DNA of 46,723 nucleotides from Candidatus Woesearchaeota archaeon (GTDB lineage: Archaea; Nanobdellota; Nanobdellia; SCGC-AAA011-G17; JAGVZF01), in the NCBI GenBank assembly GCA_018302805.1, contig JAGVZD010000002.1, forward strand, positions 1-46,723. Direction: 5' to 3'. Below the pieces are notes generated by a model, which was not told the DNA's origin, did not search any database, and saw only the letters and a list, made by a program, of their open reading frames with translations. Of this stretch, positions 1,718-46,723 are shown one piece after another (the stretch's first letter is position 1; every line of letters begins with the position of its first letter). A program made the translations under genes and the position numbers.

Positions 1718-1804
1718 GAGCCTGTAGCGCAGCTTGGATAGCGCGGCAGCCTCCTAATTTTGGAAGACAGCTGTAGGTCGTGGGTTCGAATCCCACCAGG
1801 CTCG
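1718..1804 (+). tRNA. tRNA-Arg(CCT) with a 12-nt intron at 37/38
   Basis: Acceptor GAGCCTG/CAGGCTC, D-stem GCGC/GCGC, T-arm GTGGG-TTCGAAT-CCCAC, anticodon stem GCAGC/GCTGT. Removing ATTTTGGAAGAC gives loop CTCCTAA. Confidence 0.88.
1757..1768 (+). other. tRNA-Arg intron (12 nt)
   Basis: Central helix CTCC/GAAG (one mismatch), bulges TAA and ACA; excision gives a 7-nt loop. Confidence 0.75.
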
Positions 1805-1876
1805 CTATTGTAAAAATGAGTTGCAACAAATAATAATAAAATCTCCTTATAAATATTTATAGTAAAATTTAGTAGT

Positions 1877-2474: not shown

Positions 2475-2873
2475 ATGGATGATTGTATCTTCTGTAAAAT
2501 AATAAGAAAGGAAATTCCAAGTAGAATTGTTTATGAGGACAAACTTAGTTTTGCTTTCTTGGATATTAAACCTTATAATTTAGGGCATACTTTGGTAATT
2601 CCAAAAAAGCATTATCGATGGGTTTGGGATATAAAAGAGATTGATGAATTTTATAAATCTGTACGGAATATTGCTAATGCAATAAAAAAGGGATTAGGTA
2701 CTGACTATGTTGTATCATTAGTTTTTGGTGAAGCAGTCCCTCATGCTCATGTACATCTAATCCCTAGATTTAATAATGATGGTCATGGCAACGCAATTAA
2801 ATTAGGTAATTTCAAGAATATTTCTGAAGATGAACAATTAGATTCACTTAAAAAAATCCAAAGCTTTTTATAA
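2475..2873 (+). CDS. HIT family protein
   Basis: CIFCKIIRKEIPS and HAHVHLIPR (HxHxH). Confidence 0.93.
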   Translation: MDDCIFCKIIRKEIPSRIVYEDKLSFAFLDIKPYNLGHTLVIPKKHYRWVWDIKEIDEFYKSVRNIANAIKKGLGTDYVVSLVFGEAVPHAHVHLIPRFNNDGHGNAIKLGNFKNISEDEQLDSLKKIQSFL

Positions 2874-2901: not shown

Positions 2902-2990
2902 GGCGCTGTAGCTCAGCCTGGTAGACCTTTTGGCCAGTTAGCAATGGTCTCATGAGCCATGGGCCGGGAGTTCAAATCTCCTCAGCGCCA
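2902..2990 (+). tRNA. tRNA-Met(CAT), elongator-like, with a 15-16 nt D-arm intron
   Basis: Acceptor GGCGCTG/CAGCGCC, anticodon arm ATGGT-CTCATGA-GCCAT, T-arm GGGAG-TTCAAAT-CTCCT. Extra sequence lies between AGCCTGGTA and AGC of the D-arm. Confidence 0.88.
2924..2939 (+). other. tRNA-Met D-arm intron (15-16 nt)
   Basis: BHB: central helix CTGG/CCAG, bulges TAG and TTA, inner CC-TTTT-GG. Excising 2925-2939 restores GCTC...GAGC. Confidence 0.75.
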
Positions 2991-3758
2991 TATATTATAA
3001 TATTCTAAATTCAGTTTATCTCTAATCCTTCTCTTATTATTTGGATAAGGGTATTTTAATTTTTCATCATAAACTTTTGAGTATTCATAAAAAGTATTTA
3101 ATTTGCAGAAATGTTTGGAGTTAATAAAACCTATTTTTCGGCAAAATAAATCCAAGTTACGCGGACCATTAAATTGAAACCTATATTGATCTTGAAGGTG
3201 TCTAAATCCACCATCTAGTTTTAGCCTTTTTGCCTTGTAAATGTGTCCTTGTAAACCCGAATCTGATAAAAATTTAAAAATTCCAAGAATTAGGGGTTTG
3301 GATATTCCATTTGCTTCAATTCTGGGATAAAATTTGTTGGGATTTTTTGTCAATACTAAACTTCCATCTGTTGCAATGAATCCCCTTGTAACGTTTATCA
3401 TCAGGTTATATTTATTAAAAAAATCGGGAATTGATATCATAGGACCCTTATGGCCCACAATAAACCCAAGGTCTTTTAACTTATTAAACAAAATTATATC
3501 TTCAAATCTAAGATCTAAGCTCCCAAGATTGGGCCTTTCGTGATATTTAACATCTCTGTTATTTAAGTCTTTAACTAGTGGTATAATTAAAGAATCAAAG
3601 AATTCTTTATCACCATAAATGCTTCCTGTTATACAAATCGTATGCTTAGTATGTCTTTTGTAAACTCCGTTAGATAGGCACCCATCACCTAGCATTATTC
3701 CATAAAATAATGCTAACTTTTCTTCATAATTTAAAAATTCAATTCCTTTAAAAGCCAT
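2982..3758 (-). CDS. Free-standing LAGLIDADG-family endonuclease-like protein
   Basis: Two dodecapeptide-like motifs: LALFYGIMLGDGCLS and INVTRGFIATDGSLVL. Final codons TGG CGC TGA lie within the 3' end of tRNA-Met. Confidence 0.82.
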   Translation of the reverse strand: MAFKGIEFLNYEEKLALFYGIMLGDGCLSNGVYKRHTKHTICITGSIYGDKEFFDSLIIPLVKDLNNRDVKYHERPNLGSLDLRFEDIILFNKLKDLGFIVGHKGPMISIPDFFNKYNLMINVTRGFIATDGSLVLTKNPNKFYPRIEANGISKPLILGIFKFLSDSGLQGHIYKAKRLKLDGGFRHLQDQYRFQFNGPRNLDLFCRKIGFINSKHFCKLNTFYEYSKVYDEKLKYPYPNNKRRIRDKLNLEYYNIWR

Positions 3759-3900
3759 GTATAAATTAAGTAATTTAATAATTAAAATATATGTGAGAAA
3801 TAATATTAATATTGCATTTGCTAAATAAATTTAAGCAGCGTCATTAAAATAAACCTCTTATCTAGAAAACTTTAAATAATCACAGACTTGATAAATTATA

Positions 3901-33828: not shown

Positions 33829-33914
33829 TTAATTCGATAGACTTATAAATTTCTTTAAAATATTTTGAAACTATGCTCCGTTAGTCTAGCCCGGTCAAGG
33901 ATTCGGCCCTCTCG

Positions 33915-33951
33915 AGCAAACTTTTCTTAAAAGTTTAATCAAAATGGAGAA
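33915..33951 (+). other. tRNA-Glu intron (37 nt)
   Basis: BHB: CTCT/GGAG central helix, bulges CGA and AAA, outer helix CGGCC/GGCCG. Confidence 0.88.
33918..33943 (+). repeat. Intron repeat element copy 1: AAACTTTT-CTT-AAAAGTTT-AATCAAA
   Basis: Identical to copies 2 and 3 except for the 3-nt loop. Confidence 0.95.
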
Positions 33952-33985
33952 AGGCCGAGACCCGAGTTCAAATCTCGGACGGAGC

Positions 33986-34011
33986 ATTTAATGCTTGAGA
34001 GCATTTAAATA
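33986..34011. terminator. Hairpin with T-tract downstream of tRNA-Glu
   Basis: ATTTAATGCT-TGAG-AGCATTTAAAT followed by AATTTTT. Confidence 0.4.
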
Positions 34012-41623: not shown

Positions 41624-41707
41624 GCGGCTTTAGTTCACCGGTAGAATCCGAGCTTCCCAATTCTTAGGAATTAGCTTGAGAAGTGGGTTCGATTCCCACA
41701 AGCCGCA
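41624..41707 (+). tRNA. tRNA-Gly(CCC) with a 13-nt intron at 37/38
   Basis: Acceptor GCGGCTT/AAGCCGC, anticodon stem CGAGC/GCTTG, loop TTCCCA|A, T-arm GTGGG-TTCGATT-CCCAC. Confidence 0.93.
41660..41672 (+). other. tRNA-Gly intron (13 nt, ATTCTTAGGAATT)
   Basis: BHB: TTCC/GGAA central helix, bulges CAA and TTA. Confidence 0.85.
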
Positions 41708-46492: not shown

Positions 46493-46544
46493 ATGCCCCT
46501 CATTGAAAAATTAATGGGCCCAACCGGATTTGAACCGGCGACCT

Positions 46545-46558
46545 ATATCGATTTAATA
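46545..46558 (-). other. tRNA-Ile V-region intron (14-15 nt)
   Basis: ATCGA/TCGAT central helix with AAT and ATA bulges. Confidence 0.65.
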
Positions 46559-46565
46559 TTTCGAT

Positions 46566-46581
46566 GGCTGTCCAATCTGGC
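46566..46581 (-). other. tRNA-Ile 37/38 intron (16 nt)
   Basis: CTGA/ACAG (one mismatch), inner CCA-GAT-TGG, bulges TAG and CCA; excision gives CTGATAA. Confidence 0.68.
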
Positions 46582-46587
46582 TATCAG

Positions 46588-46604
46588 TATCACCCTCAAA
46601 TGAG
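46588..46604 (-). other. tRNA-Ile intron near 31/32 (about 17 nt, boundary uncertain)
   Basis: Required to join TTCGA to CTGATA; wobble-rich CATTC/GGGTG helix with GAC and ATA bulges. Confidence 0.55.
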
Positions 46605-46723
46605 TCGAATGCTCCAGCCAGGCTAAGCTATGGGCCCATAATCTTAGTTGCAGCAACCTTAACAATAGAACATTCGTATTATTTATAAAAGTTGCTACAG
46701 AAGGTTTTTAAGTGTAGTCTTGA

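Follow-up and report, generated by a model that had tools for sequence, protein, structure and literature searches.

The enzymes closest to the one described here, I-Tsp061I, I-DmoI and PI-PfuI, share with it a common fold, two LAGLIDADG motifs, catalytic acidic residues and a monomeric two-domain layout. However, they sit in an rRNA intron or an intein, whereas the homing endonuclease gene (HEG) studied here is free-standing, beside a tRNA gene and convergent with it. In the Allomyces mitochondrial atp6 element an endonuclease ORF brings along a substitute for part of the gene that it disrupts, and the original part is displaced downstream; that case concerns the C-terminus of a protein gene in a fungal mitochondrion, in contrast to a complete tRNA gene on archaeal chromosomes. 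SegB of phages T4 and T6, a GIY-YIG enzyme, is likewise encoded by a free-standing HEG in a tRNA gene region. It is reported to cleave in tRNA-containing sequence and to drive the inheritance of that region (cited in PMC13096335). Unlike the elements discussed here, it acts in a phage tRNA cluster, without exchange of one cellular essential tRNA gene. Archaeal integrative elements (SSV1 and pNOB8 type, and the Caldiarchaeum tRNA-Thr case) enter a tRNA gene, restore its function and leave a displaced piece (PMC3293823). Insertion into a tRNA gene, a restored tRNA and a displaced piece are also what we propose below, but SSV1- and pNOB8-type elements have an integrase, att repeats and large cargo, whereas here the HEG stands by itself and, in the clearest examples, the resident tRNA has given way to an entirely different one. 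The general view is that free-standing homing genes are confined to intergenic sites, since entry would disrupt a gene (PMC13405050).

Here we analyze a 46,723-nucleotide stretch of DNA from a Candidatus Woesearchaeota archaeon (contig JAGVZD010000002.1; the whole stretch is called the window). From sequence comparisons, we consider it probable that the locus is a small free-standing homing element composed of a LAGLIDADG endonuclease gene and a complete elongator tRNA-Met that replaces its target. In the literature accessible without subscription, no description was found of HEGs linked to tRNA genes in these archaea.

The Window ORF Is a Predicted LAGLIDADG Homing Endonuclease

The initial annotation had recognized two LAGLIDADG-like motifs in the ORF, and these are present as LALFYGIMLGDG at residues 15-26 and VTRGFIATDG at residues 123-132. 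In 18 close relatives, G20, G24, D25, G26, G126, T130, D131 and G132 never vary. Across 36 aligned relatives D131 is invariant and D25 nearly so, i.e., the catalytic acidic residue at the end of both motifs is conserved. The window protein alone scored 15.9 bits against LAGLIDADG_3 of Pfam, under the 22.5 cut-off; of the aligned relatives, 33 of 36 match a LAGLIDADG family profile at E<=0.01. Searching the PDB with the 36-row profile returned I-Tsp061I (E = 3e-11), PI-PfuI (3e-10) and I-DmoI (1e-6). Structure prediction, which had been suggested as a check, gave a LAGLIDADG homing enzyme fold: the AlphaFold model of the window protein is confident (pLDDT 94.4, pTM 0.91) and has two domains, with the alpha-beta-beta-alpha fold present in two copies in one monomer. 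Foldseek with this model placed the same enzymes at the top again (2dch, 1dq3 and I-DmoI entries, E about 1e-9).

WhiA-type LAGLIDADG proteins show a distant domain likeness to this family (4 of the 36 aligned relatives match PF14527 weakly), but their helix-turn-helix domain was absent from the Pfam scan, and a WhiA regulator was ruled out, the top matches being homing enzymes. An intron- or intein-encoded HEG was also ruled out, as the ORF lies outside a complete tRNA, on the opposite strand, with an overlap of 9 nt. Fold and catalytic residues thus predict a free-standing LAGLIDADG homing-type endonuclease, as the initial annotation had it, and the profile search, the Pfam scan and Foldseek alike speak against the WhiA-like family that it had named as a refuting outcome.

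The HEG Overlaps the 3' End of an Elongator tRNA-Met

The tRNA gene at the end of the ORF scores 52 bits against Rfam RF00005, and its mature D stem (GCTC/GAGC) appears only once a 15-nt intron is removed, in agreement with the annotated intron-containing tRNA-Met (Table 1). It is the elongator and not the Ile2-type tRNA, because the Ile2-type CAT tRNA (GGGCCCA...TGGGCCC) is a separate gene elsewhere in the window. The last HEG codons, TGG CGC TGA, are indeed the complement of the tRNA acceptor 3' strand, as had been noticed from the letters. No further HEG copy was found in the window's own genome.

Table 1. Features of the window (positions count from its first letter)
Feature	Position	Strand	Remarks
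LAGLIDADG homing endonuclease gene (HEG), 258 aa	2982..3758	-	sequence, profile, model
Codon of catalytic residue Asp25	3684-3686	-	
Codon of catalytic residue Asp131	3366-3368	-	
HEG stop codon TGA	2982-2984	-	inside tRNA acceptor
Elongator tRNA-Met(CAT)	2902..2990	+	discriminator A at 2990 included; cloverleaf by hand
D-arm intron of tRNA-Met, 15 nt, ACCTTTTGGCCAGTT	2925..2939	+	exons 2902-2924, 2940-2990; boundaries inferred from D stem of joined exons and relaxed bulge-helix-bulge, +/-1 nt possible
Anticodon CAT of tRNA-Met	2951..2953	+	putative break region, from relatives' displaced pieces
HIT-family protein gene (from HxHxH motif)	2475..2873	+	upstream neighbor of tRNA-Met; synteny anchor, outside element
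Possible decayed acceptor remnant of displaced tRNA-Met, CAGCGTCATTAAAATAAA vs CAGCGCCATTTTCATAAA in G002	3836..3853	+	weak
Further intron-bearing tRNA Arg(CCT)	1718-1805	+	
Further intron-bearing tRNA Glu(CTC)	33875-33986	+	
Further intron-bearing tRNA Gly(CCC)	41624-41707	+	
Further intron-bearing tRNA Ile2-type(CAT)	46515-46637	-	

HEGs of the Near Clade Are Patchily Distributed and All Lie beside tRNA-Met

We surveyed Nanobdellota-type genomes at the level of the phylum, the order, the class and two families. Relatives with a profile E under 1e-78, together with one decayed copy, were taken as the near clade (27 distinct loci); those with E above 1e-37 form a broader family. The near clade is patchy, being present in 16 of 378 class genomes. 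The suspected tie to tRNA-Met holds in related genomes: all 27 near-clade loci lie <=110 nt from an elongator-type tRNA-Met(CAT). At 28 tRNA matches in 1.03 Mb, positions that close to a tRNA make up about 0.9% of the genome, and the adjacency is far beyond chance, on an estimate that takes the loci as independent, which is true only in part. The HEG is convergent with the tRNA-Met 3' end in 23 loci, and for 19 of them the stop codon of the HEG falls in or past the tRNA gene; the other four are tandem (L013, L018, L019) or at the tRNA 5' side (L078). Upstream of the HEG-bearing tRNA-Met lie different genes (HIT, S17e-like or small membrane protein genes), and tRNA-Met is therefore the constant element. 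Scans of viral contigs gave no virus-borne relative of the HEG.

In genome G338 (L022:1501-1890) the HEG is decayed, shortened and interrupted by two stops, beside an intact intronless tRNA-Met. This copy would represent the end of the element's life cycle.

Members of the broader family also adjoin tRNA genes (Ala, Asn, Phe, Ser, Asp, Glu and Thr, with some isotypes uncertain), either in convergent orientation or immediately 5' of the tRNA (L025-L029, L033, L034, L044-L058, L063). Their ORF tails read through the tRNA, giving GPVAQPG in sense and GFEPPTF in antisense. Displaced halves were sought against the neighboring tRNA in this broader family, and none was convincing. At L034:1108-1303 (archaeal genome G084), an Rfam match to a group I intron (84.8 bits) lies just upstream of a broader-family LAGLIDADG ORF.

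The HEG tree is at odds with host taxonomy, with host genera intermixed. Monophyly is rejected for the HEGs of genus g172 (p-AU 5e-9) and for those of family f56 (p-AU 1e-4), and weakly so for the four HEGs from the window's order (0.03); the window protein clusters with two f56 proteins (support 95/88). These topologies indicate horizontal spread of the HEG clade. Patchy presence, empty sites (see below) and the conflict between tree and taxonomy together constitute a mobility signature for the clade at the sequence level.

Resident tRNA-Met Genes Appear Broken and Replaced in Relatives

The order HIT gene - tRNA-Met is kept across the window's order, and HEG-less genomes have the tRNA without the HEG. 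Similarly, in genus g172 the arrangement small membrane protein - tRNA-Met - AMMECR1-like occurs both with and without the HEG.

Displaced tRNA pieces were sought in two ways: each intact tRNA was aligned locally with the locus around it, and a profile built from the 3' halves of tRNA-Met genes in HEG-less genomes was combined with reading of the junctions. Beyond the HEG, 3' pieces of a second tRNA-Met in the same orientation as the intact one were found at 9 of 27 loci (L073, L079, L008, L080, L019, L082, L081, L009 and L006; 34 down to 5 bits), compared to about 1 of 65 controls, a count obtained by reading the hit list (Fisher P = 4e-5). Five of the nine reach only 5-11 bits in the profile search and were accepted because of their position, orientation and, for two, match to native genes. 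In eight, the piece either stops short of the acceptor or has one unlike the acceptor of the intact tRNA; L019 has the same acceptor. The extra pieces at L019 and L006 match the acceptor or the 5' end of the intact tRNA at their locus, and local duplication is a possible source of both. At L006:2219-2272 an exact 20-nt copy of the intact tRNA-Met 5' end lies just upstream of that tRNA; it may be a repair scar or a local duplication.

The most informative loci can be compared with HEG-less genomes. In HEG-less G455 (genus g168), the tRNA-Met (GTCTCTG...CAGAGACA) is flanked by an S17e-like gene and a HIT gene. The congeners G187 and G515 are homologous to it on the left as far as the tRNA start, and right-flank homology resumes at a piece ending in CAGAGACA; between the shared flanks they have a different complete tRNA-Met and the HEG, followed by this ...CAGAGACA 3' piece. 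G559 carries GTCTCTGTAGCTCAGAGTTA to the left of the intact tRNA, 20/20 identical to G455, and GCTCTCATGAGGCAG...CAGAGACA to the right of the HEG, complementing the left piece, so that a single tRNA gene is split, its halves lying on either side of tRNA-Met and HEG. In G151 the displaced piece TCAAATCCCCGAGGCGCCA is identical to the 3' end of the native tRNA-Met of HEG-less G033, from the same family. Right-hand junctions of the displaced pieces fall around the anticodon stem-loop, which suggests a break of the resident gene there. An empty site compared inside a single genus, a split gene found independently of it and a match at the level of the family thus all show that resident tRNA-Met genes in relatives were broken and replaced by a different complete tRNA-Met together with the endonuclease gene.

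A simpler view would be that of an intergenic HEG, which targets the tRNA-Met 3' end and inserts downstream without breaking the tRNA, the displaced pieces being unrelated duplications. It would account for the ORF ends that touch or enter the tRNA 3' end, for the 18 loci without a displaced piece, and for genus g172, where the tRNA-Met genes of HEG-bearing L012 and HEG-less L117 are nearly identical and the HEG is the main difference. However, even L012 has anticodon-loop sequence (CTCTCATAA) just upstream of its HEG, and the displaced pieces of G187, G515, G559 and G151 equal the native allele of a HEG-less relative, unlike the adjacent intact tRNA; therefore the whole tRNA was exchanged. 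We regard the intergenic view as unlikely, albeit the strongest of the competing explanations.

Introns, Host Function and Integrases

The initial annotation had proposed a trans-acting mobilization factor for tRNA introns, i.e., an enzyme that cuts intronless tRNA-Met and thereby lets an intron be copied in. In the window's order, introns occur at 3 of 4 HEG-bearing versus 8 of 55 HEG-less tRNA-Met loci (Fisher P = 0.018, on four HEG-bearing genomes and with kinship ignored), and all nine HEG loci of the f26/f19/f46-type subclade have an intron-bearing tRNA-Met. Yet HEG-bearing tRNA-Met genes in f56 are mostly intronless, HEG-less genomes of other, comparable families have identical-type long introns at position 37/38, and the HEG-less congener G002 has a tRNA-Met with a D-arm insert at about the position of that in the window plus a 37/38 intron. 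Moreover, introns are found in most detected tRNAs of the window's own genome, which has a single copy of this HEG. For these reasons the HEG does not track tRNA introns, which follow lineage instead, and the co-occurrence anticipated for relatives is not general. Surveys of HEG-less genomes in the order and the class, anchored on the HIT gene, led us to reject intron co-mobilization as a general explanation, and a role of the HEG as intron mobilizer is very improbable. Any intron in the tRNA of the cassette would be carried along as a passenger.

In many families, whether or not the HEG is there, the long 37/38 introns of elongator tRNA-Met have the blocks GAGCGATGA ... (C)GATGA ... CTGR in common (L010, L015-L018, L020, L164-L166, L190, L194, L204, L217, L221, L222 and L229), which call to mind a C/D-box guide RNA within the intron. 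Several tRNA-Met genes (L021, L019, L181, L196, L215 and L163) have up to three inserts, one of them in the T loop, and were missed or miscalled by ARAGORN.

LAGLIDADG proteins can serve as maturases, and the HEG could be a domesticated protein that serves the host at tRNA-Met, for instance in splicing or processing. Pairs of HEG relatives are under purifying selection (dN/dS 0.15-0.29), which counts for such a role and equally for the homing element, but the patchy distribution, the presence at intronless tRNAs, the decayed copy in G338 and the conflict between HEG tree and taxonomy all argue against it, and we give domestication marginally less credence than intron mobilization. Hardly credible, and the weakest of all, is a remnant of an SSV- or pNOB8-type integrase element with the HEG as passenger: such elements likewise rebuild tRNA genes and leave displaced pieces (PMC3293823), but the HEG is the only ORF between intact tRNA and displaced piece, no integrase gene is present, and the intact and displaced acceptors differ in the best cases, so that a whole tRNA came in and not an att half.

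The Window Copy

A search of the window for a displaced tRNA-Met half gave no clear one; the weak candidate in Table 1 has a shuffle P of about 0.02 with one of two references tried. The window tRNA-Met has its acceptor, left flank and D-arm insert position in common with HEG-less G002 and, given these features, may be native. The closest mature sequences to it come from other families. The window and G002 are too diverged for a nucleotide-level empty-site comparison. Homology to its relatives makes the window copy a candidate cassette, and on such a reading its scar would have decayed or never existed.

Discussion

A homing element that carries the replacement of its own target is well supported as a description of how the near clade would work. 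The enzyme would cut the resident, element-free tRNA-Met gene in or near the anticodon stem-loop, and repair from the donor would install the tRNA-Met + HEG cassette. The resident gene would stay broken, its 3' piece and at times also a 5' fragment lying outside the cassette, and the incoming tRNA-Met would take over. The cassette's own tRNA would presumably escape cutting. On this point, comparison with HEG-less tRNAs revealed no consistent anticodon or T-arm difference that would mark a resistant variant in HEG-bearing f56 genomes, and intronless cassette tRNAs show no obvious one either; the matter of self-protection counts against a cassette. Loss of the cassette's tRNA would probably be lethal even after decay of the HEG.

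More broadly, the balance tips slightly toward a two-gene selfish element that has spread in DPANN archaea, destroying the single elongator tRNA-Met and installing its own, on which the hosts then depend; other branches of the family, beside tRNA-Ala, Phe, Asn, Ser and others, may treat their tRNAs likewise.

Such a replacement copy would let a HEG outside introns and inteins land in an essential, conserved gene, and may explain how an essential target can be hit without death of the host. Target replacement would lift the intergenic limit on free-standing homing genes, so that essential conserved genes become landing sites. It would also provide a concrete way for distant archaea to exchange essential tRNA genes, and a source of the tRNA halves scattered in genomes, which are usually discussed only for integrases (PMC3293823). 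If true, hosts would be dependent on a tRNA of selfish origin.
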